Shown here piece by piece: positions 2,557 to 51,173 of a stretch of DNA of 64,000 nt. The stretch lies in assembly GCA_947561395.2 (NCBI GenBank), contig OX387195.1:23451126-23515125 (forward strand). The letters run 5' to 3'. The stretch comes from Buxus sempervirens (taxonomy: Eukaryota; Streptophyta; Magnoliopsida; Buxales; Buxaceae). Position 1 is the stretch's first letter. Each line of letters starts with the position of its first letter. The notes below the pieces were generated by a model. That model did no database searches. It was not told where the DNA came from and saw only the letters and a list, made by a program, of their open reading frames with translations. The translations under genes and the position numbers were made by a program.

Positions 2557-2694
2557 ATCCGGCAACTCAGGCCGGATACAAGTGTCCTTCTTTGTATCCG
2601 GTGGACAATGCCGGATACAAGTAGACCTCAGTGTATCCGACATCATAGACCGGATACATTAAGGTACTTGTGTATCCGGCCTGACATGCCGGAT
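2557..2694 (+). repeat. Array of four 21-bp CCG-N11-CGG palindromes (AT type)
   Basis: Palindromes start at 2557, 2596, 2635 and 2674, exactly 39 bp apart. Each is AT-CCG-N11-CGG-AT. The central 11 bp differ between copies; the first contains ACTCAGG. The array lies about 170 bp upstream of the TATA box. The regular spacing and invariant half-sites suggest a protein-binding array; the function is inferred. Confidence 0.9.
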
Positions 2695-2862
2695 ACGCTA
2701 GTTTTGCTCAAAATTAGGGTTTTCCGAGAGCTTTTCACTTTTACCATCATATCCCTCATTAAATGAGGGGAAATCTCAGAAATAGCCTTAGGGTTAAGGT
2801 TGGTGGGCTATAGACATTATGTTGTGTCTACCATTCTCACCAACCCTAACCCTAACCTTTGC

Positions 2863-2871
2863 CTATAAATA
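2863..2871 (+). promoter_or_regulatory. TATA box of LTR-A (1978-4744)
   Basis: The sequence ctataaata is preceded by a telo-box-like CCCTAACCCTAACC. The same gcctataaatag context recurs at the equivalent position in the other LTRs of this window. It is the likely Pol II promoter that defines the start of R. Confidence 0.75.
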
Positions 2872-2978
2872 GGAGACTCATCCTTAAGCAAAGGGCACAC
2901 AACTCTTGTTTTGAATTCTCGCAAAGAAGAACTCCAAGAGAAGAAGAAAACCGCTGTGGAATCGCCTCCAGAACTCAG

Positions 2979-2984
2979 GTAAGC
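2979..2984 (+). other. Putative 5' splice site in LTR-A leader
   Basis: CAG|GTAAGC occurs 116 nt downstream of the TATA box. Equivalent donors lie 114-129 nt downstream of the TATA box in the three other LTR-A copies (minus 9937, plus 37372, minus 46066). Confidence 0.55.
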
Positions 2985-4663
2985 CTCAACTTTTCTTTTT
3001 ATTTTCTGTCTTTACATTCCTAGATCTAGATCTCTTCTTCCACCTTTCTGTAGTGTAAAGCCTTGTTTGTATGTGTGGAAATCCTTCCCCGGCTCAAAGT
3101 ATCTCAAGACTCCCCTAGCCGTAAAACGTGAAGGCGGATCTAGGAGAAACGAGACTGGGGATTGACCCTAGTGCTAGAACCTATGTAGCATAAGGCCTTT
3201 TTGATTGATTGTAAACCGTTCCATATTCAAAGTACCCTTGATTATCTTAAAGAGAACAGAGGGAAACGATAATGGAACGGAACCCTAGGCTATGCTAGAA
3301 CCTATTTTGTTGAATCTATATGCATGTGTATGGATCTTGCTTGGTTTTTCACTTTTGCACACATATTACACCTTTTTGGTGAATCGGCTCACATTTGGGG
3401 ATTTATTGCATTCATTGTGATAAATCTCCAATAAATGGCCTCAATCAAATTCTGGAGTGTTTTAAAATGTTTTTCAAAGGTTTTGGATTCATCTCACACG
3501 AATCACACACTTTTTGTCAATTTTCGGATTTGACTTTCTTCAAAAGTGGCTTAACTGGACAGCACCTGTACCTCTACTTCGGACATCCGTAACTTCATCA
3601 TCCGGATGAATTTTGGGGCGATTCTAGAACCATGGGAAATGCGAGGCTGTCTAGTTTATGTCCACCAAATTTCATGAATTTCTATCTAGCCGATTTTTTA
3701 CACCTCTCTGTCGAAGTTAAGTGGACAGTTCAGGTCCAAGTACAGAACTTGTCACTTCGACGGACCGCCATGTGTTCGTTTTAAGTCCGATTCGAGTGAT
3801 TTTTGTTTCTGAGTACTCCTTTATGAGTCTATTTTCAAATCCAGTTGGTTTCATAATTTTTTGGATTCCATTTGAATTATTGGTAGCCGATTTACTCAGA
3901 ACTGCTCATTTGCATTTTTCTGGGTAAATCTGTGATCTTCGGGGCCTGTTCGGGAGACCACCCAAGGCACGTCCGAAGGGATTTTTGTATGAGGCTAGTT
4001 TCTCTGGAAATATGGCCATACAGACTTCAATCACACCAAATTTCACGGATTTCTAGGTAGTGGATTTATCTAGACAATTTTCCAAAGTTGCCCACTTACC
4101 ATTTTTAAAAATCCCCAACAGCAACTTCAAAGGAGCATAACTCCTAGATTTTTCATCGGAATGAAGTGAAATTTTGCATGAGACTCTTACTTACCCTAAT
4201 CTTTCAAATGGATTTGGTTTGGTTCAATTTAGAATTGGATTTGAATGATTTTAAGGCAAATGGCATACTTTTTACCGAATTTGCCTCAACTTGGTTTTGG
4301 TCACTTTTACTTTGATTTCCATCTTTTGAAATACTCCAGAAGTGATATTGACATAAGAGAGGATCTAAAATCCATTTAGATCTTCATGTGAAAATATCAT
4401 ACATTGTTCCTTTTTCAAAGCTTTTTTCATGATTTTTAGCAAGCTTCTTATTTTCGTTTTAGCATGAACATACACTTGGCAACCACTTCGTGTGGATGAA
4501 TGGGGGTGCCTAGCACCTTCCCCCGTTCATAATCTAATCCCCTTACCCATCTCTGGATTTGATTTTCAGGTAGGATTATTTTTATCCTAGAATTTGTCTT
4601 TTGGCTATTTTTGCCTATTTTTGAATTCTTTGGTGTCCATTCTCACCCCAAAATCATGAATGG

Positions 4664-4673
4664 TGGCGACTCT
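4664..4673 (+). other. Partial PBS-like motif inside LTR-A
   Basis: TGGCGACTCT matches the first 10 nt of the tRNA-Arg-type PBS, but lies inside the LTR, 71 nt before its end. The same arrangement is found in all six LTRs of the window. Confidence 0.7.
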
Positions 4674-5330
4674 CCCACTTTTGCGTTGAGCCCGTGTGTT
4701 GACGGAGGGATGATCACTCCGGTGATTTTTTCCCATGTCTCACAGGTGGCAGCTTTTAATCTCTGAGACCGTCGGGGAGCAATGATTGCAGTAAGAACTT
4801 AGTACCTTAGTAAAAGAAAAAGACAAAAGAGAAAAATGTTAGTATCCCCCTAAATCAATTTTAGACACCTATGCATGCATGCATGTAGGCTTGGTGAACA
4901 TGAGTTTGGGGTTTTCTTTGTATCCATATTTTTTTTATTTTTGTATTTATGGTTAAAATAACCTTATTAAGACGAGGTGATTGATACGAAAAAGATCAAA
5001 CCTCAGAAATTTTGTTGGAGTATTCTAGGGCCTCCAACATGTCCCACAGAAATGATATGGCTATGGTAAAAGCCCATAGTCAGATCAAGCATTGGAATTA
5101 CACAAGCTTCCAAGGGCTTATGAATTGGTTGGTGCGAAAAAGACCTACCAATATTGGAAAATTCTAGGGCTTCCAACACATCCCACACAAATGAGATGTC
5201 CAAAGTAAAAATCCTTAGACAAACTCGAGACTTGGAATTACGCAAGCTTCCAAGGGCTTATGCTTTGGAATTAAGGCTTCCACAACCTCCCGAAATTACG
5301 CAGGCTTTCAGGGGCCTATGATTTTCTAAA

Positions 5331-5790
5331 TTCAGGCTTTAGAAGGCCTATGAAAATTTTGAAAAATTCTGGAATTTCAGGCTCCCAGGGTCCTATGAGT
5401 TTCTAAATTCAGGCTTTAGAAGGCCTATGAAGATTTTGAAAAAGTCTGGAATTTCAGGCTTCCAGGAGTCCTATGAGTTTCTAAATTCAGGCTTTAGAAG
5501 GCCTATGCAGATTTTGAAAAAAGTCTGGAATTTCAGGCTTCCAGGAGTCCTATGAGTTTCTAAATTCAGGCTTTAGAAGGCCTATGAAGATTTTGAAAAA
5601 GTCTGGAATTTCAGGCTTCCAGGAGTCCTATGAGTTTCTAAATTCAGGCTTTAGAAGGCCTATGAAGATTTTGAAAAAGTCTGGAATTTCAGGCTTCCAG
5701 GAGTCCTATGAGTTTCTAAATTCAGGCTTTAGAAGGCCTATGAAGATTTTGAAAAATTCTGGAATTTCAGGCTTCCAGGGTCCTATGAGT
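5331..5790 (+). repeat. Tandem repeat, about six copies of a 78-bp unit
   Basis: Equivalent points fall at 5347, 5424, 5502, 5581, 5659 and 5737, a period of 77-79 bp. The unit carries caggctt and ggcctatgaa motifs. Because 78 is a multiple of three, an accidental ORF with a 26-residue repeat is open at 5584-5793. There is no sign that it is translated. Confidence 0.9.
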
Positions 5791-6521
5791 TGATTTTCTG
5801 AAATTCCAAGGCTTCCAGATGCCTAAAAATTTTTTGATTTCCAGCCTTAGGTATTTTGAGTTAAAAAGAGACTCACTTTATCTTTAAGGTGGTGATTTAT
5901 TTGAAAAATTTTTTTTTATTGAATCCTTAATTGATCACTTGCTTGGAACTCAGAGGTTTCCCAGTGACCCAATGAGTTGAAATCTTAAAAGTTTGAATAC
6001 TTTATGATTAAAGATTTCTTATTTTTGGTTGGAATTTGCTCCATTTTAAAAGAGTTGAGCTTCTTTTCCTTTTACTCTTGGTTCAGATCCCACTTTAGGC
6101 TTAAAACATGCTTTGTAAGCTTATTGTGATTTCCAAGTTTAATTCTTGAGGTTGAAGTATGATTAGGTTGGTTATTTGAACCAATTTTCTTTTAATCATT
6201 TACTTCAATTAAGATGGGTTAGGTGTTCAAATTAGGTAAAAAGAGCTTAACATGAGCTTAAACCCCAAAATTTGGTGCTTGACCTGATTTTTGGTTTGAG
6301 CCAACTTTTATTTCATCATTTTCACCTTTGAGTTGGATTAATTTGCTCAATTTAGGTGAATATGTTCAAAATGACCTTAATCTCTCGATATGGGTGGATT
6401 TGGAATGGTTTAAATGCCATTTATCTTATTTGGAGTCATTGCACACTTGCTTATATAACTTAGGGATGAAAGGACCCAGAAATGTTTAATTAGCATGGCC
6501 AGAATGGGATTTCGGCTTAAA

Positions 6522-6608
6522 ACCGCACACTCAGGACGGTTTGGCTCAAACCGTATGATACATGCGGTTGCAGCGAAAATGCAGACAACCGCATACTCAG
6601 GACGGTTT
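6522..6608 (-). repeat. Three 21-bp CCG-N11-CGG palindromes (AA/TT type), internal cluster
   Basis: Copies start at 6522, 6550 and 6588. Each is AA-CCG-N11-CGG-TT, and two have ACTCAGG in the spacer. They match the type found upstream of the TATA box of the LTR at 8220-10633, about 1.6 kb beyond the PBS. Confidence 0.85.
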
Positions 6609-8217: not shown

Positions 8218-8285
8218 ATTGTGAGACATGGAAATGTCATCTCCGATGACTTCCGATTATCGTCACGCGGGGATCGATAAAGATA

Positions 8286-8295
8286 AGAGTCGCCA
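8286..8295 (-). other. Partial PBS-like motif inside LTR-A (minus)
   Basis: The minus strand reads TGGCGACTCT, 66 nt upstream of the LTR end at 8220 and about 70 nt from the true PBS. Confidence 0.7.
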
Positions 8296-10043
8296 CCATC
8301 CATTTTAAGGTGTGAATGGACACCAAAGGGTTCATAAATGTCAAATAGAGCCAAAGTAGCTCTAATACAAGGAAAATCCAAAGATTGGGTACGAGGAATT
8401 ATTTATGAGCAGGGGAAGGTGTTAGGCACCCCCACTCATCCATCTAAGACGGTTACCACATGCTTGCTTATGCTAAGAATCATTTTTCTAACAAAATGGG
8501 CAAAAGGATGCTTACCACAAGCACCATGTATGTGATCATTCCACATGAGAAGTCTAATGAACTTAGACTCTCTTTGTGGATTCATCACTTCTAAAACCTC
8601 ATGAGTGAAGGAAAATCAAGGTAAAAATGAAGAAAATCCGGCTAAGACAAATCTGGAGAAAATAGGTCAAAAGAACTTGAAAGCTTTGATAAACCCTAAC
8701 TCCCCCAATTCAAATCCAAATCAAATGAAACCAAAGCCATTGGAAAACTGGTATATAGTAGAGTATATAGTAGAAAATTCAGCTCAATCCGATCCAAAAC
8801 AAGAGAGAAATCCACATATGAAATCTGCTGTTATAACTCAGAAAAAGTGTTAAGTAGGCATTTTCAAAGCTCTATTCGTGGAGTTTGGCTCAATAAAAAA
8901 ACATGAAAATTGGTATGGAGGAAGTATGTAGTGCCATCTTTTCAAAGAAAAAGACCTCACACCAATCTCTATCCGGATGTGACTTGTGTGCTCTCTTGAA
9001 CAGGCCTAAAAGACCACAGATGAGCTCTGGACTATGCCAGCGAGCACTTCTGAGTCAACTGAGCACCCAAGACACAAAACAGATTAAAATCTGCTGAAAT
9101 CAGTTGGAAATGAAAGTAGACTTCTCAAAGAAAACTCAGAAACTGGAATCATAGGAAACGGATTAAAACTGAGCAAATAGCGCACCATCAAAGCGGCAAG
9201 TTCAGCAATCTGGGCTGAACTGTCTTACAAACTTTGAAGAGATGGTGTCAAAAATTGGCTACATGGAAGTGGACGAAAATTTCCAGATATTAAATAGACA
9301 CATCCATCTATCACATGTCTTTGGAATCACTCAAAAATTCATCCAGAGGATGAAGTTATAAGCATTCCAAGACAGGCTACAGATCTGTCCTGTTTTTGAA
9401 GAACTTTGAATAAGAAGCCAAAATCAGTGTATGTGTGCAAGTGGATTCGACCAAAACAATTTAAAATCATGAAAAACAACTCATGAACTTCTAAAAACTC
9501 ATTCTAAGGCCAATGATCTCAGATTTTCCATATTTACATGGAAATCCAAGATCTAGCCTATTTTGATAAAAAAAGGTGGAAAGTGGGTGCAAAGATGTGG
9601 AAAATCACATTTCTATGAGAAAGTTGGAATCCATGGCTATTGAGAGCATGGATTCACATCTTCTCCAAATACAAAAATGATCAGAGAAGCATTCAAGGGC
9701 TCAAAATAACCATATAGCATGCTTGCACATCATTTGAGGGTTCTAAACCTAGAGGATCCATTCCACCTTCCTTTTCCCCAGGCTCTCTCTTCACGTTTTA
9801 CGGCTAGAGAGGATTCCCAGGTACTTTAGAAGGGGTTTGGGGCTACAAACAACATCAAAGCCTTACACTACAGAAAGGTAGAAGATGAGAGATTGCTAGA
9901 ATGTAAAGAGGAAGCAATAAATCAAAATGGGCTTTACCTTAGTAGCTTGAATGGTTGAGTAGGCAATCCAGCAGAGGTTCTCCTTCTTCTTTGCAGAGCT
10001 TCTAAGCTTCAGATGGTCAGCCATTTGCAAGAGGAGGACCTCT

Positions 10044-10053
10044 CTATTTATAG
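10044..10053 (-). promoter_or_regulatory. TATA box of minus LTR-A
   Basis: The minus strand reads CTATAAATAG, about 200 bp downstream of the palindrome array and 116 nt upstream of a splice donor at 9937. This is the same arrangement as in the other LTR-A copies. Confidence 0.7.
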
Positions 10054-10253
10054 GCCAAGCTAAGGGTAGAAGAGTCCCAAGGGTAGGCCTAAAAGGCTTT
10101 CTAGATTATTCCAATTCTCCTCCAAGGCATGAATTGGTGTAATTCAGCAAGTTTCGGAGGGTGAAATGGGGAGTTTAGGTCCTTGAGAGAGAGGTAATAT
10201 GCATAAATAAGGCTCAGAGATCGAGCCATTTCGCAAATCCCCGAAACAGCCAA

Positions 10254-10520
10254 AACCGTATACTCAGTGCGGTTTCTACACAACCGCCACTCAAAGTGCG
10301 GTTCATGTATAAATTTGACCAAACCGCATATACAGGGCGGTTCAATTCAGTTATGCTTTAATTGATTGCTGTCCACGCGGCTCAACGGCCGAAGCTTCGC
10401 GAAGCCACGTGGCCGCCAGCGCAACGAGCATGGACATGAACCGTGCTGTGTGTGCGGTTGCAACCGCACATACAGAGCGGTTGAGACCAAGATTATAAAA
10501 ACCGTATACACAGTGCGGTT
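10254..10520 (-). repeat. Six 21-bp CCG-N11-CGG palindromes (AA/TT type)
   Basis: Copies start at 10254, 10282, 10322, 10439, 10462 and 10500. All have AACCG and CGGTT arms. The second has a 12-nt instead of an 11-nt spacer. Several spacers contain ACTCAG or ATACAG. The segment between copies 3 and 4 (10343-10438) holds GC-rich sequence without the motif. Confidence 0.9.
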
Positions 10521-10633
10521 GGCACTGATTTTGAAAGTTTTTGAAAGTTTGACACATGTCAAGGCTCAAATAAGACCTTTGGAGCCCTTCTTAGTTAATC
10601 TCTTATATTGGGGTGCAATTTGGGGTGTCTACA

Positions 10634-10949: not shown

Positions 10950-12326
10950 TTAATGAAGAGGACCAACACCAATAGCTTTCCTAAGAAACTCAAACCTAAG
11001 AGCATCTAAAGGTTTGGTAAAGAGGTCAGCTAATTGATTTTCGGATGGGATGTGTTCAAGAGATATCACATGATTTTCTACCAACTCTCGAATGAAATGA
11101 TGTCGTATATCAATGTGCTTGGTTCGAGAGTGCTGAACAGGGTTTTTGGAAATATTAATAGCACTTGTATTATCACAATACAAGACAATAGTTCCCTGTT
11201 CAATCCCATAATCACTCAACATTTGCTTCATCCAAAGCAATTGAGTGCAACCACTACCAGCGGCTATATACTCCGCTTCAGCTGTGGACAAGGAAATAGA
11301 GTTTTGCTTCTTGCTCATCCATGCCACAAGATTGTTCCCAACATAGAAACAACCTCCAGTTGTGCTCTTTCTATCATCTGCATTTCCAGCCCAGTCGGCA
11401 TCAGAATAGCCGGCTAGAATTACAGAAGTGTCTCTAGAGAACCAAATACCATGATCAACAGTACCGTTAACATATCGAATGACACGTTTGACGGCAGACA
11501 AGTGAGACTCTCTAGGATTTGCTTGGAATCTAGCACACACTCCTACACTAAAGGCAATATCAGGCCTACTAGCGATAAGATACAAAAGACTACCTATCAT
11601 GCTTCTACAAAGAGTGTTATCTACACTCTTTCCAGATAAATCAGAATCAAGTTTCAAGGTAGTGCTCATAGGGGTTCTAGTGTGTTTCTTGCTGTCCAAC
11701 CCAAATCTCTTCACAAGGTCATTAGCATATTTAGATTGAGATATGAAAATCCCATCTGTAGATTGAGAAATCTGAAGACCTAAGAAAAAATTTAATTCAC
11801 CAACCATGCTCATCTCAAATTCATGTTGCATAGCTTTGGCAAAATTTAAAGCAAGAGAATCAATTGGAGAACCAAAAACAATATCATCCACATAAATTTG
11901 AGAAACTGTGAAACTGCTCTTATCCTTTATAATGAACAAGGTTCTATCAACTCCTCCTCTTGTGAACTTGTGATCTAAGAGATATGCAGTAAGTCTCTCA
12001 TACCAAGCTCTAGGAGCTTGTTTCAACCCATACAAGGCTTTCTTAAGCCTAAACACATGATGTGGGAACTTTGGATCTACAAACCCCTTGGGTTGTTCAA
12101 CATATACTTCTTCATGAAGTATCCCATTCAGAAAAGCACTTTTTACATCCATTTGATGCAATTTAAAACCCAAGTGGCAAGCTACAGCAAGTAAAATCCT
12201 TATAGATTCAAGTCTAGCTACAGGGGCAAATGTTCCATCAAAATCAATACCCTCAACTTGGGTATATGCTTGTGCAACCAACCTAGCCTTATTTCTCACT
12301 ATAGTGCCATGTTCATCAGATTTGTT
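10950..12326 (-). pseudogene. pol: Ty1/copia reverse transcriptase and RNase H
   Basis: This is the C-terminal part of a copia polyprotein that copies RNA to DNA and degrades the template. An open stretch of 449 codons runs from about 12299 to 10950. The RT shows the fingers motif RLVAQAYTQ, the conserved [21 protein letters not shown] and the catalytic YVDD. RNase H follows with [17 protein letters not shown] and YCDNTSA. It ends in a typical copia tail ([11 protein letters not shown]). A TAG stop at 12327-12329 separates it from the rest of the RT N-terminus, and a frameshift lies near 12525. The domain itself looks intact, but the polyprotein cannot be made in one piece. Confidence 0.93.
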
Positions 12327-12329
12327 CTA

Positions 12330-12748
12330 GAAAATCCATTTGGTTCCAATAACATTATAATTTTCAGGTCTAGGAACAAGATACCACACATCATTCCTAA
12401 TGAATTGGTTTAATTCATCATGCATGGCATTAATCCAGCACTCATCAGTAAGTGCTTCTTCTACCTTCTTAGGTTCAAGAGTTGAGACATAGGATGCAAA
12501 TGACATCTGATTTAGGACTTTCCTACGAAGTCATCCCTTCATTCAAATCACCAATTAACAACTCTTTGGGATGATTTAACCTTATTCTAGAGGAAGGTTC
12601 TTTTGTAGGACCTGGATTTGAAGAAAAACCTTCTTCAGAAGTTGAAGAAGACGACTCAGATGACTTAGGATCTTGAATTTCAACAGTCAAGTCATTTTCC
12701 CCTACTTCTAGACTAGTCTCCCCCTCAACTTGAGACTTATCAACCCCT
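12330..12748 (-). pseudogene. Copia integrase-RT linker, frameshifted
   Basis: The reading frame continues from the integrase after a one-base shift near 12760. It codes for a serine- and glutamate-rich linker (SSESSSSTSEEG region) that ends at a stop near 12523. Homology then resumes in another frame with the conserved copia segment around WINAMHDELNQF and runs to the TAG at 12327-12329. The two frameshifts and the nonsense codon show that this copy is dead. Confidence 0.8.
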
Positions 12749-14260
12749 TCATCCACAACAACATTTATGGATTCCATGACAGTGTGTGCGTAAGTTATAC
12801 ACACGGTAAGCCCCGCTATTCTTAGAATAACCTAGGAAGATTCCTTCATCACTCTTGGCATCAAACTTAGCCAAATTCTCCCTATATCTCAAAATGAAAC
12901 ACTTACTTCCAAAAACACGAAAGTATTTGACAGTGGGCTTTTTACCATACCATATTTCATAAGGAGTCTCAGTACTCCCAGGCCTCAAATACACCCTATT
13001 TATCACATGGCAAGCCGTGTTAATCGCTTCTCCCCAGAAATACATGGCCACACCCTTGGCATGTATCATAACTCTTGCCATTTCTTGAAGAACCCTGTTT
13101 TTCCTCTCTACCACTCCATTTTGCTGTGGAATAATAGGAGCAGAGAACTCACGATGAATTCCCTCTTCAAGACAAAAATTTTCAAGGATTGAGTTTTCGA
13201 ACTCTTTCCCATGGTCACTCCTCATCCTAACAACCTTAGACTCTTTTTCATTCGAGAGTCTTCGACACAAAGACTTGATCAACTCACTTGCTTCAGATTT
13301 TTCTCTTAATAGCTCAAGCCAAGTAAATCTGGAGAAGTCATCCACAATAACCAAAATGTACCTCCTACCACCAAGACTTTCAGTCCTAGAAGGACCCATA
13401 AGGTCCATATGCAACAATTCAAGAGGTTTGTGGGTTAAGCACTCAGTGATCTTTTTGTGACTCGATATAGTTTGCTTTCCCAACTGACATGGCCCACACA
13501 CATTAGGTTCTACTTTGGCAAGCTTAGGAAGGTCTCTAACAAAATCATGCTTGGACAATTCATTCATATTTTTAAAATTCAAGTGACCAAGCCTTTGATG
13601 CCACAATTCATGCATATCAACTTTGGAAGAGTTACACACAACATTAGAGTTAGGAATCACACCATAACAGTTATCCGGAGTTCTTTCTCCTTGAAGCACA
13701 CACAAACCATTTGCATCAAACACAGAACACATATCTTTAGCAAATTTAACTTCCATGTTTGAGTCACACAATTGACTTATACTAATCAAGTTAGCTTTCA
13801 AGCAATCAACAAATAAAACTTCACTCAAAGTAGGCATACCAGAAATTTCAATAACACCCTTACCTACAATAGGAGCTTTGCTTCCATCACCAAAAGTAAC
13901 AGTACCACAAGAATAATCTTCAAAAGATTTAAACAATGATTTATCACCACACATGTGACGAGAGCAAGCACTATCAAGATACCACATGAGACTATTTCTA
14001 GCCTTCAAAGCAACATGAACTACATGGCAAGTCAATTCACTTCTTTTAACCCAAATTTGCTTAGGCTCAGTGGTTTTCTTGGTCATTGAAGCTAATTGTT
14101 GACTTAAGAGCTTTGTCTGATTTGAAAGTTCTTTCACTTGTTTAGACAAATTCTCTTGAGGTTTTCTAGGTGAGGATTTCCTAGAGTTTTGGTTCAAGTC
14201 CCAACAATTTGGTCTAATATGTCCAGAAATACCACAATAATGACAAGTAGGGATAAAATT
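12749..14260 (-). pseudogene. pol: Copia zinc knuckle, protease and integrase
   Basis: Beginning right after the gag stop and in the same frame, there is a second CCHC knuckle (CHYCGISGHIRPNC). A protease active site follows (WYLDSACSRHM), then the pre-integrase HHCC region (HELWHQRLGHLN to CGPCQLGK) and the integrase core with D in HMDLMGPS, D in RSDHGKEF and E in QNGVVERKN. The open stretch is 482 codons. The frame is lost near 12760. The second knuckle and long gag fit the Sirevirus (SIRE/Maximus) branch of Ty1/copia; this branch call is from memory. Confidence 0.9.
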
Positions 14261-15898
14261 CTAAGATTGGGAACTCTTGGTTGGAACACCCCTAGGTTTT
14301 AACCAATTAGACTTTTGACCACGATTTCTACCTTGGTTTGTCTTACCCTTGGAAGGATTGGACCTATTCTTTCCTTTGGTATTCACAACTTGGGTCTTAG
14401 AAGAAGATGGAGTATCATTGGAGACTTCCTTGTATCCTAAACCACTTTTATCAGTTCCTAATTGACTCATCCCTAGCATGTTGTCCAAATTTGCTGAACC
14501 TGTAGAAAACTTCTGGAGTTGAATTTTAGTTCTTTCAAGCTCTTCCTTAAGAGACTTATTTTCAGATTCTAGGGATTCAATCTTCAACTTGTGTTCACCT
14601 AGACGAGAAGTAGACTCTTCAAATTTTGCTTGAAGATCTTCTTTCTTGTGCTCTACATCATTTAGCCTTTTGAGATTGGACTTCAATTGTTTCTTTGCTT
14701 TCAACCACTCCCTAAACAATTTATCATAAGCATCTTGAATACTTTCCTCATCATCATCAGACTCATCATGAGAATCAATTGCATTCTCACTTGGTGGAAA
14801 GTCTTCATAATTGCTAGAGTCACCACTCCCAACAATAGAGGTGAAAGCCATGTAATTTTGACTTTCCTCTGTTTTGGAGTCCTCACTATCCCTATCAGAA
14901 GCACTCTCATCAGAAAGAGTGGCATTCATGGCTTTCCCTTGAAGCTTCTTAAATGTGGGACACTCCGACCTAATGTGACCAAAACCTTGACACTCATGAC
15001 ATCTGATTTGTTGGAGTTTTTGCAACCTAGAGTCCTTAGGATGTTTGGACTCTCTAGATTCAGATTTAATTCTTGACTTTTGATCTCTACCACTAGAACT
15101 CCCCTTGGATTTATACCTTTCATTTTCACTCCTTGGTTTCCTTCTTCTAAACATTTTCCTAAAGTTCTTTACCAGTAGGGCAATGCCTTCATCTCCCATG
15201 GATTCCTCACTCGAATCATTATAAGCCTTTTCTTTACTAGATTTGAGAGCTATAGACTTATTTTTCTTAGTAGGAGGAAGAGTGAGTTCATAAGTTTGAA
15301 TTGATCCTATGAGATCTTCAACCCTAATGCCATTAATATCCTTACTCTCTTCTATAGTAGTCACTTTGGGTCTATATTTTTCAGGAAGAGACCTAAGGAT
15401 TTTTCTAACCACTCTATTTGGAGGAATTCTTTCACCAAGATTAAAACTAGAGTTCACAATATCACTTAGTTTAGCATAGAAGGAATCAAAAGATTCATCA
15501 TCTCCCATTTTCAGTTCTTCAAACTTAGTGATAAGCATTTGTAATTTTGAATTTTTCACAAGGACAGTTCCCTCATGAGTGGTTTGGAAAATTTCCCAAA
15601 TTTCTTTATTGGTTTGACAAGTAGACACCCGTTTGAATTCATCAGCAGAGATTGCACTAAAAAGTGCATTAACACCTTTAGAGTTGTAGTTAACATCAAT
15701 TAACTCTTCTCTAGTATAGTTATCTGGATCTTTGGGTTTTGTCTCACCATCAATAATCACAGTTGGAGGATTCCATCCTTTCTCAACACTTCCCCAAACT
15801 TTTTCATCTATAGCCTTCAGATAGGCTCTCATCCTAACTTTCCAGTAGGCATAATTGCTGCCATCAAAGAAGGGTGGGGCAGTAGAGGACTTGTTCAT
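14261..15898 (-). pseudogene. gag: Copia gag (Sirevirus-like)
   Basis: This is a capsid polyprotein of about 545 residues from the ATG at 15898, the first methionine after the PBS (MNKSSTAPPFFDGSNY). It shows the copia gag core (NYAYWKVRMRAYL, NSKLQMLITKFEELKMG, RKILRSLPEKY), a CCHC knuckle (CHECQGFGHIRSEC) followed by an ATLSDE stretch, an acidic region, and a coiled coil of about 90 residues (KLFREWLKAKKQL onward). It ends at a TAG (14261-14263) in the same frame as the next knuckle and protease. The stop may be a nonsense mutation or a read-through stop between gag and pol. Confidence 0.9.
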
Positions 15899-15927
15899 GA
15901 CTAATAGAGTCAAGGATCTGGTTACCC

Positions 15928-15939
15928 GCTCTGATACCA
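15928..15939 (-). other. Copia primer binding site (tRNA-Met type)
   Basis: The minus strand reads TGGTATCAGAGC, the standard copia PBS complementary to initiator tRNA-Met. It is two bases from the LTR edge at 15942. Confidence 0.95.
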
Positions 15940-15941
15940 AT

Positions 15942-38146: not shown

Positions 38147-38151
38147 CCGAC
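38147..38151 (+). repeat. Left target-site duplication of solo LTR-B (ccgac)
   Basis: ccgac is repeated at 41189-41193. The uninterrupted sequence is seen in the sister LTR at about 3565-3585. Confidence 0.88.
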
Positions 38152-39189: not shown

Positions 39190-39288
39190 AGCCGGCCTGA
39201 GATGCCGGTTACACACAGGGTTCTGTGTATCCGGTATCTTTAGCCGGCTACACGTGGGCTTCAGTTGATCCGGCCTAAGTTGCCAGAT
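39190..39288 (-). repeat. Second palindrome cluster in solo LTR-B (three copies)
   Basis: Copies start at 39190, 39229 and 39268, exactly 39 bp apart. Two have intact CCG-N11-CGG; the last has CAG in one arm. The type agrees with the first cluster of the same LTR. Confidence 0.85.
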
Positions 39289-40374
39289 CAACACACAGAA
39301 TCCATTTTTTTGGATTTTTCCAATGGGGTTGGTTTCTTGGGTCTCCTAGGGTGTTCTAGCATTTGTGTGGGCTCCTGTGTGAGCCCACAGTGGTTCAGGT
39401 GAGAGGAAGACCTCCTCTCGGTCACTTTTTTTTTGGGGTTTTGAAATCTATACCAAGGGAGATGAATGGGGTTCCAACTCTTCCTCCCCTTGAATAAAAT
39501 ACAGCGGAGGGGCAGAGGTCCTACACCTCTGTCCAGGTTGTTTGGGGCCTCAGAGAACCACAATCAGTTATTAATAATCACACGAGAAAGAAATCCATTA
39601 GAGCATGCTTCACTTAAGGCCTATCTTTCATCAAAAGATGCATGCATACCTACTTATAATCCTATATGAATGGATAAAAAAAAATATGCATCACACATCA
39701 CATGTATTATAAACCTATTAGTCCAAATCACACATCTAGCTAAAATAGATCTAAAGAAGGGGATAAGGGGGATTACATGTGGGATAAATGAGAGACAAGC
39801 ATGAGGGAACAAGCTCCCCTTTAAAATAAAACATACATATGCTATGACAGTGGCAGAAAGTGAAGCAATAAACCTCTCACCCTCCCCTAGGGTCATGCAT
39901 GGGGTCTCCATTACCCTTGGAGGTCACCATACTACCGGGAGACGGAAGAAAAACATGCAAGTGTTCACTCAAACGGATATATATTTCGTAGAAGCAAAAC
40001 CCAAAGAACTTTCATAGAAAAATCCCTTTTTAACATATGTAGAATAAAATGTACTAAGGGATCATACCTTGGGGTTTTAAAGCCCCTTTGAAGTGTGCAG
40101 CCTTCTCCTTGAAGCAAGAACAGGTGCTGCAACCCTCCCTTTACACACCAACAGTAGGTGCTCTCCTTCTTGCTGGGGTGAAGATGGAGAAGAAGAAGGG
40201 AAGAGGGAGTAGGAGAGCCTTGGGATAATGTTTTGAGGGTTTGGGGGGCCAAAGGAGGCCAAAAGGAAGGAGTTTCGGAGCAGGTGGTCTAAGGGAGAAG
40301 GGGTGGAAACCAGCACAAATGAGGCCAACCCCGGAAATCAGGCTGCTGTTTCCTTTTTATAGGCAACTTAATGT

Positions 40375-40616
40375 ATCCGGCAACTCAGGCCGGATACACT
40401 AATGCTCCTTCATATCCGGCCTTCATGACCGGATACACTAAGGTTCCTTTGTATCCGGTCTTCAATGCCGGATACAAAACATAATCATTTGAAAATTAAA
40501 TGCCGCCGCGAATTTGTCGGGCGATCGGCGCGAATCTCGGGCGAAAATCTTCTTGTATCCGGCCTTCAAGTCCGGATATACACAAGAGTATGTGTATCCG
40601 GTATATTTGACCGGAT
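40375..40616 (-). repeat. First palindrome cluster in solo LTR-B (five copies, AT type)
   Basis: Copies start at 40375, 40414, 40453, 40557 and 40596, with 39-bp steps within each sub-group. All are AT-CCG-N11-CGG-AT. Although this is an LTR-B, the palindromes are the type of the LTR-A copies at 2557 and 36956. Confidence 0.9.
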
Positions 40617-42370
40617 ACAAATCAAAAAATTACGGATTTGCCCTTCGACTTGACCGATTCGACCGATTCGACCGATTTGACCGATTTGACACTTTTGGAT
40701 ATCTACGGATCACCCCGTACGAATTTTTGATATCTAAGATTTAGTCCCTGTGATATTTTGCTGCATTGGCTGCCACGTATGCAGCTCCTGCTCCACGTGT
40801 GCAGTTTCCGGCTTTGCTGCTCGGAAACTTCGACAGCTCATATCTCCTTCATCCGAACTCCGATTTGAGCAAACTCAATTGCGTTAGGCTCGTATCGGAG
40901 CCCTCTATCCAATGACATAGGGCTAAGCACTTGGCACAGGTTTTGAGGAAAAGTCAACTTTCGGCTCTCCCTCAAGTTTGACCGGCCCACAGAACCCTCA
41001 TCCGGACTCCGATTCCAGCAAACTCAGTTGTGTTAGACTCGTATCGGGATTCCCTATCCATTGAGATAAAGCAAGGTGGCCAATTATCACTGGATCAAAA
41101 AGTCAGATTTTTGTCCCCTCAGGGTTTGACTTTCTACCAAGGTTTTCATTTTCGACATTTCCAGGGGTGCAAAAATAAGGTGCTTACACCGACTTCGGAC
41201 ACTCATAACTTCATCGTCCGGATGAATTTTGGAGTGATTCCAGAACCATGGGAAAGGTGAGGCTGTCTAGTTTATGTCTACCAAATTTCATCAATTTTTA
41301 TCAAGCGGATTTTTGACACCTCTCTGTCGAAGTTGATAGGTCAATTCTGATCTGAATACGGAACTTGTCACTTCGACTGAGCGCCATGTGTTCGTTTTAA
41401 ATCCGATTCGAGTGATTTTTGTTTCTGGGCACTCCTTTATGAGTCTATTTTCAAATCCAGTTGGTTTCATAATTTTTTGACTCCATTTGTGTTGTTGGTA
41501 ACAGATTTACTCAGAATTGCTCAACAGCACTTTTCTGGGTAAATCTGTGATCTTCGAGGCCTGTTCGGGAGACTACCCAAGGCACATCCGAATGAATTTT
41601 TGTATGAGGATAGTTTCATTTGAAAGATGACCATACAGACTTCACTCACACCAAATTTCATGAATTTATATGGAACCGATTTTGCTAGGTGATTTTCCAA
41701 ACTTGCCTACTTGCCACTTTTAATTATCTCCAACAGCAATTTTAAAGGAGGCATAACTCCTAAGATTTCAACCGGATTCAATCAAAATTTTGCATGAGTC
41801 TCTTATTTACCATAATCTTTCAAATGGATTTGGTTTGATTCAATTTAAAATTGGATTTGAATGATTTCAAGACAAATGGCATTATCTTTTACCGAATTTT
41901 CCAGATTTAACTCAACTTGGTTTTGTGCAACTTTTGCCTTGATTTCGTTCTATTTGTGATATTCCAGAAATGATATTGACATAAGAGAGGATCTGGAATC
42001 CATTTGGATCTTCATGTGAAGATATCATACATGTGTCCTTTTTCAAGGTTTTTAATGATTTTTAGCAAGCTTTCTGACTTTTTTGCATGAACAAACACTT
42101 GGCAACCACCTTGTGTGGGTGAATGGGGGTGCCTAACACCTTCCCCCGTTCATAATCTAATCCCCTTTCACATCTCTGGATTTGATTTTCAAGTAGAGTT
42201 ATTTTTACTCTAGAATTTGCCTTTAGGTTCTTTTTGCTTATTTTGAATCTTTTGGTGTCCATTCACACCCCAAAAATCTGAATGGTGGCGACTCTCCCAT
42301 TTTTACGTTGAGCCCGTGTGTTGACGGAGGGGAAATCATCCTGGTGATTTTTCCCATGTCTCATAGTAAG

Positions 42371-44780: not shown

Positions 44781-46170
44781 TGTGAGACATGGGAAAAAAT
44801 CAATCTCATGATTTCCTCAATCATCACACGGGATTAAATAAAACAAAGAGTCGCCACCATTCAATTTAGGTGTGAATGGACACCAAAATATTAAATAAGC
44901 ACAAAAGGCAAATTTTAGGGCAAAATATCCCTCCTAAAAAAAACAACCAGAGATGGGTAAGGGGATTAAGTTATGAACAGGGGAAGGTGTTAGGCACCCC
45001 TATTCATCCACACAAGGTGGTTGCCAGGTATTTGTTCATGTTAAAATAAAGGAAAAAAACTTGCTATAAAAATCACACAAAATCACAAAAAAAGACAAAA
45101 TATATGGTTTTTTCATATGAATAGTCTGATTGATCCAGAACTATCAAACATGATCATACCATTCCTAGGGCTTCATGATCAAAACAAAATTAAGATAAAA
45201 TCAATTTAAAGTGAAAAATCCAAAATCTGGCTTCAAGTCAAAATTCTAGAAATCCAGAAAAATATGATTTTTATAAAATATTTCAAAATTGAACTTGAAT
45301 AGTCCAGGACATAGATAAAGCCCAAATTTCACTTAAAATCTGAAAATCAAAACCAAAAAGACCCACGTTGATGAAAAACACCAAAAGGGGAGAACTGAGA
45401 CCGTAGGGTCTTCTCTCAATAATGAAAAAGGATTTAAAAACCATATCATGAAACCCTAGAAGTTATTTTCAGGCTTCTAGATTCAGATCTACCATATTGA
45501 TCATGATAAATCCAAGATCTTAGCCTAAGACCACAAAAATCACGAAAACAGTGCTGTAGGTGCAAAAGTGGCAAAAATCCAAATTTTGGCAAAAATAGGG
45601 GATCTCATGCTATAAACATCATGGATTCATGTTATTCATTCAAATATATCATAAAAAGCATTAAAACATGATCAGGATATTCAAAACAGCCATATCTCAC
45701 AAATTATAGCACATGGGGGTCTACCCTACGGATCCACCTGTTCCCCTTTCCCCTAGTTCTCTCTTCACGTTTTACGGCTAGAGAGACTCTTGAGGTACTT
45801 AGAGATAGGTTTGGGTACACAAACACAATCACAGGCTTTATTCTAGAAAAAGGAAAAAAAACAGATATGGGGTTCTATTCTAGGGATCCACCTGTTCCCC
45901 TTTCCCCTAGTTCTCTCTTCACGTTTTACGGCTAGAGAGACCCTTGAGGTACTTAGAGACAGGTTTAGGAATACAAAAAACAGATATGGCCTTATTCTAC
46001 AGCAATAGAGATGATCCTATTACATCTAGAATTGAAGACAGAAAATAAAAAGGATAGGGGACTTACCTGGATTGAGCAGGCAGGCAGCAGGAGTTCTTTC
46101 TCTTCTCTTGGAGCTTCTTAGAATTCCTTGGACTCAAAATTTCGTGGCCCTTAGCTAGAGGAGAGAGCCT

Positions 46171-46180
46171 CTATTTATAG
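46171..46180 (-). promoter_or_regulatory. TATA box of minus LTR-A (44781-46586)
   Basis: The minus strand reads CTATAAATAG, 114 nt upstream of a CAG|GTAAGT donor (minus 46066). Confidence 0.7.
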
Positions 46181-46380
46181 ACACACACAGGGGTATGGTT
46201 AGTCCAGAAGGATATAGCCTGGTCTTTAGGATAGAGTGAAATACAGAGATAATGCCCATCCATAGCCAACCAAGGTGGCTTCAGCGAATAAAACACTTAA
46301 TTCGCTCGTTTAAAGATATATTGGACTTCAAATAAAGCTCGGAAATCGAGAGAAGGACAAAACTTGCACGTGTCTTTAAT

Positions 46381-46485
46381 GCCCGTAAATGATTTACGGT
46401 CCCACGATGTCCGTATATTTACTACGGGCGCTGCGTGCCTGTATTCAGAATTCGGGCATGCTTAGCCCGTAGTGGCAATACGGTC
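46381..46485 (-). repeat. Four 21-bp palindromes, GC type
   Basis: Copies start at 46381, 46409, 46437 and 46465, exactly 28 bp apart, of the form (G)CCCGTA...TACGG(GC). One half-site of the third is CTG. They are the type found in the LTR-B at 49472-51918, not in the other LTR-A copies. Confidence 0.9.
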
Positions 46486-46586
46486 CAGGCTTAAATTATT
46501 CATTTTCATGCATTTTTGGCCTGTTTTAAATCCCAATTAATGTTTTCATTATTTTCTCATTTTTAGTGCAATTTGGGGTGTCTACA

Positions 46587-47150: not shown

Positions 47151-50034
47151 ACAAGCAAATTTTGAAAAGAATGTGGATTTAAAATTGACCACTGCAAATT
47201 TAATTGATTTTGATGTTTTTCACTTTTTGAATTTTCCTGATTGATTTTCTTATTTGATATACCTGGGTGTCATTTGATGCCCGAACCTGTGCTTGAATAT
47301 TTTGCAACTTGCTTTTGCTTCTTTATCTTCTTGCTCTCTCAATAACGATGTATGTGCCCTTACTGCCCATAACCTGTCTTCATGCTTTTTAATTGCCCAA
47401 GTGAATGCCCTCATCTTGATTGATGGATCATGATCTGTTGATCTAACCTCATGCCTTTACAACCCATGATCTATCTTTCATGCCTTCTGACTGCCCCAGT
47501 AAAATCTTTCTTCATGATTGAAGAATTGGGAACCCTTGTTTAACTGAGAAAACGTGCAACTGCTTCGAAGCCCTTTTTTTTTCTTTCAAATTCGAAGACT
47601 AAAGCTTGATTGCTTCTTCCAGATGTTGGAATTCATTCCAATGAAAACCCAGAAGGAAAGACACTGAGCATGCCCTGGTTTTGATTGTTTGAAGAAGTAT
47701 TTGCCCCTCAGTAGAGATGATCCTCTTTTTTCCTTTTTCTCTTTTTTTTCTTTCTTTTTTTCTTTTTCTCTTTTTTTTTCTCTCTTTTTTTTTTTTTTAA
47801 CCTTTGCCAAAAAGAAACCCTAATAGAAGAATGCAATTGCAAACATAAAAAAAATATGTTTTATACTAGTGGCCTCAGAATTTTCTAATACTTGCAAAAC
47901 CAATGTTTTATGAAAAGATATAGATTCTCATCATAGGCCAAAAATATAGTTTTTGCCTTTTTTTGTGTTTTGATTTTTTTTGAAAATTGATCCAATCACT
48001 TATTAGCATATAATCCAAAAGAATTAAAATCAAGTTGAATAATGAGAAGATTATTTCAGAAAATGAAGAAAGACCAAAATAAGCCTTTGGAACCTTTAGA
48101 ATCATTCCCATGACCATTGGCTTGTCAATTGATGCTCTAGATATGGCGACTCTTTCAATCTGACTATTTTGCCCCAGTCTAGAAAGAAATTTTCCTTCAT
48201 CCAATTGAAGAGCAATTGTTTCTCCATTGTATCCATGATATGAGAATTTATGACTTCAACTTCAGCAATAATTTCCTAATGGCAATTTTGATGGCCATCA
48301 ACTTGTTCATAGATGATTCATATCATAGTTCTGATTATGTTGCTTCAGTCTTGAAAAGAAGACTTTCCTCAATCACTTGAAGAGTGACTGTATTTCAAAA
48401 TAACCACCAACATGAGGACTTCACTTGGATCTATGCCAATTCTGGGCTTTCCTCTCTGACGATTTCCTTCTTGTAGATAGCTGATTATTTGCCATGTAGC
48501 GCCCTTTCGGGTTTTCACTACATTTTCTCCATTTTTTCCTTTTTTTTTTTTTTCTTCTTCTTTTTTCTTTTCTTTTTTTTTTTTATCCTTCATCACCAGC
48601 AACCATGTAGTCAAAACTGCCTTAATTCAAAATTTCTTAATCAAAGAGGACTTATGAATAGGACGAAACGAAGGCTTGGTGTTAGTTTAGAAAGAAAAGG
48701 AATAAAAGGCTCAAATACCCTATAATCAAATGGGTTAACTGAAATTGTAATTTTTAAGGCATTTCTTCCCTTGGAATGAATATAAAATTGCTCCCAGTAA
48801 TGAAGTTCTTCCCTCAATTTGATTTCTTCATTTGAAACTTATTCTCCAGTATTTAACTTCTTTTTTCCATTCTTTTCTTCACAATTTTGAAGACATTCTC
48901 CAAATAACATTTGATTATCTTTTTTTTCTTCCCTTTTTTTCTTTCTTTTTCTTCTCTTTTTTTTCATTTCTTCGCCCCATTTTCTGAAAACATATTCAAA
49001 ATCCCTTTTGAACTTCAATAATTGTCCCTTCATTCTTTTTTTTTTTTATGCCTTAATAAATTTGCCCCAGTGTGGGGTTACAATTCTCAGTTTAGGTTAC
49101 TTAGAAAAATGTATCAAGCTCAAAGGGTCTAACTAGGGATTTCAAAAATTTTAGAGATATAAGAAAGAAAGGCCTCTTATCATTTTAAGAAAAAATTGAA
49201 TTTTCAGACTTGGTAAAGTTGTACTACATGACTAGTTCAGGATTTTTTCTTCTCTTTTTTTTTTCTTCTTAATCACCTTCTGTCAACATGAAAGCCTCTT
49301 TAAATAGAACTTCTGTTATAAACAAGTTCTTCACCTTTTGATCAATCTTATGAATTTGGATTCTTTCCATCAAATGATGCCCAATTCTATTTCCAACGAA
49401 AAGGTCAGATCTTCTCCCATATTTTCAAGTGCAAAGCCCCAAAATTTCTTCAAACAATATTATCAACCTCCCTGTAGACACCTGATTTTTGCACCCCTAA
49501 AATGGCAAAAAATGAAAAGTCAAACTAAAAGTCAAACCCTGAGGGGGTCAAAAATTGACTTTTTGATTCAAGTAAATTTGGCCATCAAACTTCATATCAT
49601 TGAAAAGAATATGTCGACACGATTCCAACACAACTGAATTTGCTGGAATCGGAGTCCAGGTGAGAAAAATATGACCCGGTCAAACTTCCAGAAAGCAAAA
49701 AGTTGACTTTTTGCTCGACCCCAATTCAGCTGCCAAACTTGATCCCAATGGATAGGTGGTTCCGAGTTGATTCCAACGACACTAAGTTTGTTGAAATCGG
49801 ACACCGGACGAAGAAGTTATGAGCAGTTGAAGTTTCAGGAAAAAACTGCCCATGTGGCAAAAAGGCAGCAAAAATGGACTAAACCAATAAAATAAATAAG
49901 ATAAATGTGTTTAATAATATTTTAATAAAGAGAATCTCGCTTTTTTAATAAAATAATCGAAAAATCGGATAAAAATCCTGCAATAAGCCAAATTGAATAA
50001 AGGTTTGAAATCCACACATTTTTAAAACGTGCGG

Positions 50035-50250
50035 GACCGTATTTACATTACGGGCAGGGCATGCCCGTATTTAAAGTACGGGCACGCTTCTAGAAGGAAG
50101 CCACGCGTCGCCGTACGGCGGAACACGCGTCCCGTACGGCCGAATCTGCGATAATTGCAAATATTCGTTTTTCACCCGTATTTGAATTACGGGCAAGGCA
50201 CGCCCGTACTTGAAGTACGGGCAAGGCACGCCCGTAGTTCAAATACGGGC
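50035..50250 (+). repeat. Five 21-bp palindromes upstream of TATA (GC type)
   Basis: Copies start at 50035, 50063, 50174, 50202 and 50230; the steps inside sub-groups are 28 bp. Each is CCG-N11-CGG with TA next to the arms. Between the two sub-groups is a GC-rich stretch with ccgtacgg palindromes. Confidence 0.92.
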
Positions 50251-50262
50251 ACGGGATTTTTG

Positions 50263-50272
50263 CCTATAAATA
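50263..50272 (+). promoter_or_regulatory. TATA box of LTR-B
   Basis: ctataaatag, 13 bp after the last palindrome. The solo LTR-B has the same 13-bp distance (40362 to 40375). Confidence 0.8.
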
Positions 50273-50580
50273 GAGAGGCCACCCCCCTTCATTTGGAGAA
50301 GCCATCCTCTTTGGCCTACCCCCTCTCCCTCCTGGTATACTTCACGACCCTATGCTGCCCAACCATCTCCACTCCAACACCCACACTCTTTTTATACCCA
50401 AACTACCCCTATACCCTATGACAACCCCAAAACCATGCCCAAATACCCTTTAGTTTGATCTTAAACCATCCACATTAACCAAGCCCTTCCCACTTCATCC
50501 CAGCAAGTTTGAGAGGACGCGGAAGCGCTGCCCAACTCTTTGGAGAACCACAAAAGCCAACAAAACAAACTAACTGCATT

Positions 50581-50586
50581 GTAAGT
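50581..50586 (+). other. Putative 5' splice site in LTR-B leader
   Basis: GTAAGT starts 318 nt downstream of the TATA box. The solo LTR-B has a donor (GTATGA) at about 295 nt. It may pair with the acceptor at 56073 before gag. Confidence 0.5.
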
Positions 50587-51070
50587 ATACTATTCTCTCA
50601 AATTTGAATAAATTTAGCTTATTCCATTGTCTTCTTTACTCACCTTTTTTTTTATCACTATATCACTAACCTGTTTGCTGTTTTGGATGACATGAGAGAT
50701 GTCATATGAATTCAGAAGTAAAACCATTGCCAAAAAGGAAGAAAAGAAAGTTTTTTTAAGAACAAAAATGATTATTTCTAATCCCTTAATATGAAAGGAT
50801 CAAGCTTTTTTTCTTAAGGACACCTAATATCCCCTGCAAATCATCCATTTCCCCTCTTAAGAAGCAGCTATGAACAATTAGCAAAGGGGTTGATCTTCCA
50901 GCAAAGAACCCAAGGAAAAAGAAGAAGAAAAATCAGGCCTTTTAGGCCAATTGAAGGCTACAAGGGAATTCGAAGGGCCTAGAAGCACCAGTGAATGTTA
51001 CCAGAAGACCCAAGAAAGCCGCCGGAATGACCCCAGAAAGAATCGGCAGCAAACGGGCAAACTGAGTTGC

Positions 51071-51173
51071 GCCCGTAAACTCAGGCCGGTCCAGCCTGGA
51101 CCGTGTTTGTTTCACGGACAGGCGGGACCGGAATCCATTCACGGTCAGGCTGGACCGCAGAGCAAACACGGGC
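51071..51173 (+). repeat. Second palindrome cluster in LTR-B (four copies)
   Basis: Copies start at 51071, 51099, 51126 and 51153 (27-28 bp apart). All keep CCG-N11-CGG with GA/TC or GC outer bases. The first has ACTCAGG in its spacer. It lies 0.8 kb downstream of the TATA box, in the transcribed part. Confidence 0.9.

Follow-up and report, generated by a model that had tools for sequence, protein, structure and literature searches.

In a 64-kb window of the Buxus sempervirens genome (the whole stretch analysed here, contig OX387195.1, positions 23,451,126 to 23,515,125), the long terminal repeats (LTRs) of two retrotransposon families carry arrays of an outward-facing palindrome, CCG-N11-CGG, upstream of their TATA boxes, and related elements elsewhere in the genome carry further arrays before accessory genes. 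We think it likely that these arrays are clustered operators to which a homodimeric, sequence-specific protein binds, one such protein for each element type, shared by the promoters of the element. The grammar of the sites, the exactness of their gap, their evolutionary footprint, their position at promoters and a half-site type mostly shared within an element can be read from the DNA itself; from these we infer binding by a protein, its activating or repressing effect and its possible identity.

The palindrome and its exact gap

Within the window CCG-N11-CGG occurs 38 times, and each other gap from N5 to N19 occurs 1 to 8 times. Dinucleotide-preserving shuffles of the window (n = 200) contain a mean of 1.82 N11 sites and a maximum of 6, against the 38 real ones, and the densest 300 bp of the window holds five sites where the shuffles hold at most two. 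Nine arrays, together 1,594 bp including margins, contain 33 of the 38 sites; the remaining five (25878, 33174, 40808, 51708 and 52753) look like chance occurrences. Three in-register copies have one CAG or CTG half-site (36956, 39268 and 46437) and two N12 pairs lie inside the arrays, while other one-mismatch matches there (50103, 50130 and 51113) are out of register. The original prediction, which had spoken of about 38 copies at nine sites with few exceptions, was therefore right in size.

The predicted preference for N11 extends to the whole genome (676.5 Mb, 247 contigs), where 163,369 N11 sites compare with 43,280 at N10 and 40,613 at N12, a 3.8-4.0 fold excess. Letters-reversed controls number 143,005, 126,325 and 105,655 for N10, N11 and N12; we regard the neighbouring gaps as the better control, because GGC and GCC words have an abundance of their own. 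The extended form TATCCG-N11-CGGATA occurs 41,458 times genome-wide against 23 for its letters-reversed counterpart. Across 236,825 bp (the window and the loci, 23 sequences) the same half-sites are paired 57 times at N11 and never at N5-N10 or N12-N19; part of that set was picked for its arrays, but its 120 kb at preset coordinates, taken by itself, has 14 pairs at N11 and 0 at the other gaps. This 120 kb consists of 12 stretches at preset round coordinates, those of 20 chosen that exist, and its clusters of at least two sites number five at gap 11 and 0, 1, 0, 0, 1 and 0 at gaps 8, 9, 10, 12, 13 and 14. The five clusters occupy the U3 and leader of locus L010, the U3 and a pre-LTR site of L013, and the promoter of a plant mobile domain (PMD) gene in L014.

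Arrays precede the TATA box of every LTR copy in the window

Six LTR copies of two families are present in the window, and in every one an array precedes a CTATAAA[AT]A box, at a distance of 167-200 bp in family I and 12-13 bp in family II (6/6 LTRs). Family I LTRs start with TGTAGACACCCCAAATTGCAC, with small variants, and end with GTCTCACA or GTCTCATA; those of family II start with TGTAGACACCTGATTTTTGCACCCC or TGTAAGCACCTTATTTTTGCACCCC and end with GTGCGCACA; the primer binding site (PBS), where visible, is TGGCGACTCTGCTGGGG. The half-sites fall into three types, A (TGTATCCGG/A; ATCCGG), B (AACCGY) and C (GMCCGTA), and many arrays include a palindrome with a recurrent middle, ACTCAGG, which we call the anchor.

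Four copies belong to family I. LTR I-a (1978-4744, + strand; start TGTAGACACC, end GTCTCACA), of which 1978-2526 matches no other copy, is taken as a 3' LTR from the polypurine tract-like sequence preceding it; its U3 array (2557-2694, +) has four type-A palindromes at 39-bp pitch with the ACTCAGG anchor in the first, and its TATA box, CTATAAATA, lies at 2863-2871 (+). LTR I-b (8220-10633, - strand) is a 5' LTR with the PBS TGGCGACTCTGC next to it at 8217, a type-B U3 array of five palindromes and one N12 copy near 10282 (10254-10520, -), and a TATA box at 10045-10053 (-). LTR I-c (36852-42365, +), flanked by GTAAG repeats and interrupted by a family II LTR, is read as a solo LTR within a long interspersed nuclear element (LINE); its type-A U3 array (36956-37075, +) has one CAG half-site and has lost one palindrome, and its TATA box is at 37243-37251 (+). 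LTR I-d (44781-46586, -), again taken as a 3' LTR from a preceding polypurine tract-like sequence, has a type-C U3 array at 28-bp pitch in which one copy has CTG (46381-46485, -) and a TATA box at 46172-46180 (-).

Each of the two family II LTRs of the window carries another array, 0.8-1.1 kb beyond its TATA box. LTR II-b (38152-41188, -), nested in I-c, flanked by CCGAC repeats and read as a solo LTR, carries five type-A palindromes in its U3 array (40375-40616, -) with the anchor, as CTGAGT, beside the TATA box (40354-40362, -), which lies 12 bp from the array; its second array (39190-39288, -), about 1.1 kb downstream of the box, is of type A with altered flanks. LTR II-a (49473-51918, +) is the 5' LTR of an Ogre-like element, with five type-C palindromes at 28-bp pitch and one wider gap (50035-50250, +), a TATA box 13 bp past the array (50264-50272, +) and a second type-C array about 0.8 kb downstream of the box (51071-51173, +), which begins with the ACTCAGG anchor.

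Half-sites are conserved while centres and linkers diverge

We aligned seven type-A U3s of family I and took the mean pairwise difference at each distance from the dyad centre. Differences are 0.18-0.58 over the central 11 bp and 0.21-0.46 in the linkers; within the half-site they are 0.07 at the core G, 0.04 at the core C and 0.000 at the first C and at the T, A and T preceding it, with 0.11 at the G before these. With 0.125 for the aligned promoter outside the array, the array evolves faster than its surroundings, half-sites excepted. In plants CCG and CGG are methylation contexts and are expected to mutate fast, which makes the stability of the half-sites notable.

Covariation between arms was assessed type by type (A, B and C) on 86 palindromes out of 96 distinct ones, the other ten being of mixed or other type; an earlier test had used 36 hand-listed window palindromes, three of them with one changed half-site. 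Many of the variable offsets conform to independent arms: at type C offset -1 the arms have the same letter in 8/19 palindromes, with 8.5 expected, and at type B offset +3 in 4/12, with 4.1 expected. At offsets +6 and +7 of type B the agreement is about two standard deviations (sd) low.

Half-site type, pitch and anchor

Twelve elements or LTRs with at least two arrays of clear ownership keep to one side of A versus B/C, single palindromes excepted (window I-b, II-a and II-b; L005, L010, L013, L021, L022, L023 with L026, the family II LTR of L023, L024 and L027), a bare tally of cases that reduce to about four lineages and are not independent. Within arrays, the exceptions are the AA flanks on the palindrome that opens the L010 leader array and the flanks of 39190-39249, and B and C flanks are mixed in L005 and in the family II LTR of L023. 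Type A occurs in both LTR families, as does type C. The original prediction of one uniform grammar thus stands for CCG-N11-CGG, which is common to all types, and gives way to three half-site types, mostly one per element, in the flanks.

The type count covers arrays of clear ownership, leaving aside L025 and the second array of L030. L001-L004, L006-L008 (overlap with L005) and L028 are left out of the spacing, covariation and type counts; L030 enters the type count alone and L031 none of the three, and L021, a close copy of window I-b, is counted beside it. Of 84 spacings between neighbouring palindromes, 65 fall on two pitches (39 bp, 41; 38 bp, 7; 28 bp, 13; 27 bp, 4) that lie about one helical turn apart. 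In 28-bp arrays the linkers are also 11 bp, such that half-sites alternate every 14 bp, and genome-wide CCG-N11-CGG-N11-CCG yields 28,546 + 28,631 matches against 2,450 + 2,651 reversed.

The recurrent ACTCAGG middle that had been predicted is real. With ACTCAG in fixed register (CCGNNNACTCAGNNCGG) the anchor palindrome has 15,684 sites genome-wide (7,770 + 7,914), compared with 8 (3 + 5) one base shifted and 25 reversed. At PMD-2, one of two antisense accessory genes described below, it is the TATA-proximal palindrome and is invariant in 4/4 promoters including its centre, while the other three centres vary; it is TATA-distal in I-a and I-c, and the II-a U3 array has none. The anchor may reflect a second factor, or descent.

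The carriers are Ogre-like elements of the Tat clade

Downstream of LTR II-a the element continues with a PBS, TGGCGACTCTGCTGGGGA (51922-51939, +), which may be complementary to tRNA-Arg, as would be expected in the Ogre lineage. An open reading frame (ORF1; 53188-54684, +; 498 codons, first ATG at 53251) matches the PMD at 1.5e-21, and is followed by a frame encoding gag, reverse transcriptase (RT), RNase H and an additional RNase H (56711-62662, +; RVT_3 found) and by an integrase (INT) frame (62488-63750, +), giving the order PMD ORF, gag, RT, RNase H, additional RNase H, integrase. The additional RNase H, found in this frame and in L014 and L031, marks the Tat clade, and on their domain content the carriers are assigned to Ty3/gypsy Tat (Ogre-like) elements. 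We say Ogre-like because gag to RNase H form a single open frame, and not the arrangement of Ogre, with its intron between gag-pro and RT-RH-INT; the extra PMD ORF is an Ogre-lineage feature, though not required of Ogre elements. In the sections available to us of the survey by Neumann et al. (2019, PMC6317226), Ogre elements share with ours the Tat clade, the additional RNase H, great length and a PMD extra ORF, present in 57% of those surveyed, and differ in that gag-pro and RT are separated; those sections make no mention of LTR palindromes.

Successive LTR starts lie 16,157 bp apart and a second ORF1 follows the next LTR (window 49473-64000 and L028 1-8875): these are Ogre-like elements in tandem, sharing an LTR. 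The tandem copies differ by one mismatch in 2,447 LTR bases (II-a against the next LTR, in L028) and one in 4,790 internal bases, which makes the family II element of the window very recent. A genome search with ORF1 returned 86 matches at 97-100% identity, itself included, from 8,642 first-look candidates; ORF1 against a protein database gave nothing at E 0.001 (7,713 candidates), the pol stretch found no relative among viral contigs (two stretches shared a word and encode none), and the window contains no RNA family at gathering score. In L029 a gag frame of family I and type B (1136-4378; 1,081 codons) has a G-patch domain at its end (2.3e-06).

A Sirevirus origin of the LTRs is excluded by the pol domains and the PBS, given a gypsy-order pol with the additional RNase H. 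The Sirevirus-like copia body at 10950-15961 contains no CCG-N11-CGG and is a neighbour, not a carrier of arrays. It comprises gag, RT and a PBS, TATCAGAGC, at 15928, with no LTR pair in the self-comparison of the window.

Arrays outside the LTRs

The original prediction placed the palindromes in every LTR, which holds for all six window copies; they also occur beyond LTRs. Family I elements have a leader array about 1.4-1.6 kb after the PBS, at 6521-6607 of the window (-; three type-B palindromes about 1.6 kb past the I-b PBS, outside any LTR), at the same place in L021 (6123-6209), and in L010 (4353-4490). Tandem repeats follow this array in the window (5301-5791, 78 bp) and, of other sequence, in L010 (about 4850-6300).

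Type-A elements have two further arrays, before antisense PMD genes that we call PMD-1 and PMD-2. In L014, L022, L026 and L027 open frames antisense to pol have PMD matches, and pol with the additional RNase H lies on the opposite strand from the PMD genes in L014 and in L031, an adjoining piece of the L022 element. Taken singly, the PMD-2 frames in L014 score under or close to the Pfam cut-off (PMD, 26.3 and 19.4 bits against 34.9; DUF7745, 36.9 against 26). An array of four type-A palindromes, one of them damaged in L014, precedes the PMD-2 ATG, and in 4/4 copies read (L014, L022, L026 and L027) TATAAA begins 17 bp past the last CCG-N11-CGG and before the ATG. The array of PMD-1 is shorter, and the TATA-like box about 15 bp from it is degenerate. 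Judging by eye from GT/AG borders, the antisense PMD genes apparently have introns. For one PMD-2 exon a single pair of copies, L022 and L027, with L026 left out, gives nonsynonymous divergence (dN) of 0.013, synonymous divergence (dS) of 0.197 and dN/dS of 0.07, which points to purifying selection on that exon.

Among the matches listed, at least five groups on contig C1 have the same five-array spacing: 3409339, 3413056, 3424970, 3429071 and 3429750 (group 1, L022); 3441585, 3445317, 3457071, 3461383 and 3462130 (group 2); 3679719, 3683581, 3694990, 3699194 and 3699847 (group 3); 4234112, 4237769, 4249139, 4253654 and 4254833 (group 4); and 4516489, 4520252 and 4531437 with 4535928 and 4536614 (group 5, L026 and L023). 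We read this layout as 5' U3, leader, PMD-2, PMD-1 and 3' U3, the underlying DNA having been read for the last three arrays of group 1 (L022) and group 5 (L026, L023). The C1 matches also include arrays that stand singly and groups of opposite strand (for example 142047, 2206962 and 3385807-3395482), which were not fitted to the layout.

Other features of the window

A 650-bp inverted repeat (30034-30683 and 32493-33142; 97% complementary, 1.8 kb apart) lies beside a LINE. A 22-bp minisatellite of about 31 copies, open in several frames, occupies 20092-20786, with a similar array in L013 (8955-10000), and repeated fragments extend over 18942-27779 near a piece of a 2-oxoglutarate dioxygenase-like gene (DIOX_N match 18942-19568).

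Comparison with known systems

The closest known case is that of the repeated motif (RM) boxes of Sireviruses, and the present arrays work like RM boxes without being members of that class. In Bousios et al. (2010, PMC2829016), where Ty1/copia elements were compared and the motif was absent from classic ones, RM boxes are likewise CGG/CCG palindromes, present many times per LTR and clustered in its upper half before the TATA box, with a consensus that differs by element and extra copies upstream of an ENV-like gene. Element-specific CGG/CCG palindromes before LTR TATA boxes have, in these copia Sireviruses, an earlier description. RM boxes are mostly inward CGG..CCG with short spacing (Table 3 of PMC2829016), whereas our arrays are outward CCG-N11-CGG in all types; by our own reading of the printed sequences in PMC2829016, the OPIE-2/PREM-2 and Citrus boxes admit an outward reading too, as CCG-N7-CGG and CCG-N6-CGG. 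The carriers also differ, RM boxes belonging to copia elements and the present arrays to gypsy Tat elements, where they also head antisense PMD genes.

Grande (gene23), RIRE2 and Retand (TRP28) likewise have accessory genes in antisense between pol and the 3' LTR, and the accessible parts of PMC7264820 and PMC11963269 report that Grande gene23 has its own promoter and propose a regulatory, possibly DNA-binding, role for antisense ORFs. Here, in contrast, the genes are PMD genes, apparently with introns, whose promoters have the same palindrome arrays as the LTR; an operator shared by LTR and antisense genes does not appear in those parts of the Grande, RIRE2 and Retand accounts. Nor do the consulted sections of PMC6911290, PMC11963269 and PMC3212565 contain LTR operator arrays for Ogre, and the literature searched, as far as its text was available, contains no report of a palindromic operator common to LTR and accessory-gene promoters in Ogre-like elements.

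Two more distant systems offer partial likenesses. Proteins of the Gal4-type zinc-cluster family are fungal and bind CGG-N11-CCG sites. Their sites share CGG half-sites, a dimer and the N11 gap with ours, but face inward where ours face outward, so that the predicted comparison with Gal4 is apt for geometry and for nothing beyond it; where the pitch is 28 bp the linkers themselves form CGG-N11-CCG (8 pairs in the window arrays), but where it is 39 bp they leave a gap of 22. VANC proteins of VANDAL DNA transposons are element-encoded, act through repeated short motifs in their own element and are anti-silencing. These are DNA transposons with another protein and an anti-silencing function, and serve as an analogy for an element-encoded model only.

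Proposed mechanism and rival readings

In the proposed mechanism each subunit of a homodimer would read a half-site of 6-8 bp with a CCG core, the two half-sites facing outward and lying 14 bp apart (N11). Two to five such dimer sites, mostly at 28- or 39-bp pitch, would be occupied upstream of the LTR TATA box and, in type-A elements, also before the antisense PMD genes, and the same protein on both kinds of promoter would regulate genomic RNA and accessory proteins together. The direction could be either, since activation and repression are both compatible with a site whose end lies 16 bp ahead of TATAAA. The dimeric DNA-binding factor of the original prediction is the best-supported reading, given half-sites that hardly vary, an exact gap, a centre that diverges, arms with little covariation and a TATA box downstream.

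Several observations weigh against this reading. Many copies are related by descent, and the counts are not independent. Some arm positions do covary: type A offset +4 has the same letter in 32/55 palindromes against 22.3 expected (sd 3.2), and offsets about two sd high are type A -3 (48 against 45.7, sd 1.0) and +3 (50 against 48.4, sd 0.8), type B -3 (6/12 against 2.8, sd 1.5) and type C +4 (15/19 against 12.3, sd 1.3), while single palindromes in L010 and L025 have both flanks changed together. Promoter position is uneven, as the PMD-1 TATA-like box is degenerate (TTTTATAAG in L022, TTTACTTAAG in L023 and L027, TTTTATTAAG in L013) and the L010 leader array has, by eye, no convincing TATA box. 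The sense PMD ORF of the young window element lies at least 2 kb from the nearest array, and the PMD promoters read are all of type A, none of B or C, such that the link to PMD genes rests on type A.

The identity of the protein divides two further readings, both of which keep the dimer. A host transcription factor, exploited by the elements as by stress-responsive LTRs, is a credible candidate though it falls somewhat short of probable; a LOB-domain (LBD/AS2) homodimer would be one such factor. The CCG core is common to all types, and Sirevirus palindromes have a CGG/CCG signature in common even between distant hosts. GCGGCG is a target of LOB proteins, and the wheat Ramosa2 LOB homodimer is reported to discriminate palindromic DNA by 'molecular calipers' (PMC10118128). 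Against a host factor, the flanks beyond the core are near-invariant within a type, differ between types and are mostly kept within elements, for which a factor differing per element lineage would be more natural.

Such a factor could be the element's own, with a PMD protein (sense ORF1 or antisense PMD-1/PMD-2) binding the arrays in the LTR, in the leader and at the PMD promoters, and the three half-site types representing lineages whose PMD proteins differ in DNA specificity. This would explain why types differ between and are mostly kept within elements, and why an operator stands at PMD genes. We advance it tentatively, as a rather doubtful possibility: the host factor would be the conservative choice of identity and the PMD protein the bold one. 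The confinement of the PMD link to type A speaks against the PMD protein, as does the motif recognised in connection with host PMD proteins: the 'DOWN' motif of MAIN/MAIL1, considered as the same word and rejected, is CATGCAGTTT in the MORC1 promoter (PMC9899485) and differs from the array word.

A third reading dispenses with the dimer and takes the palindromes as RNA or DNA hairpins, whether small-RNA hot spots or packaging or dimerisation signals, as for maize Sirevirus palindromes, whose regions are small-RNA hot spots. In its favour are the dyad form of the sites, the expected inclusion of every array in sense genomic RNA and the covariation at type A offset +4, but most variable arm positions lack covariation within types, the type C offset -1 pair is often broken, and the PMD-2 array, being upstream of its TATA box, would lie outside the antisense transcript. 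A protein dimer fits better than a hairpin because TATCCG is near-invariant, centre and linkers diverge and the arms covary little; on balance two independently read half-sites are favoured over a stem, and we consider the hairpin reading improbable. Least probable of all is a functionless, minisatellite-like by-product, in which slippage would have multiplied one palindrome and the copy number of the elements spread it, for although the arrays are tandem with fixed pitch and fast-evolving linkers and centres, the elements are very numerous and the anchor suggests common descent, neutral repeats would not hold half-sites near-invariant while centres diverge by 0.18-0.58, nor put arrays before several promoters of one element.

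Implications

More than 41,000 strict type-A sites and about 120,000 N11 sites above the neighbour-gap level amount to a dispersed target set in one plant genome, and if protein-bound these sites could serve to coordinate the elements, with an influence on host genes close by as well. The host has PMD proteins of its own, MAIN and MAIL1, with functions in silencing and gene expression. The role of PMD proteins is called unknown or unclear in PMC9289625 and PMC9899485, and the link to PMD promoters offers a concrete, falsifiable lead on it. Should a PMD protein indeed bind the arrays, the elements would encode a transcription factor that regulates its own expression, and the plant mobile domain would gain a DNA-binding role.

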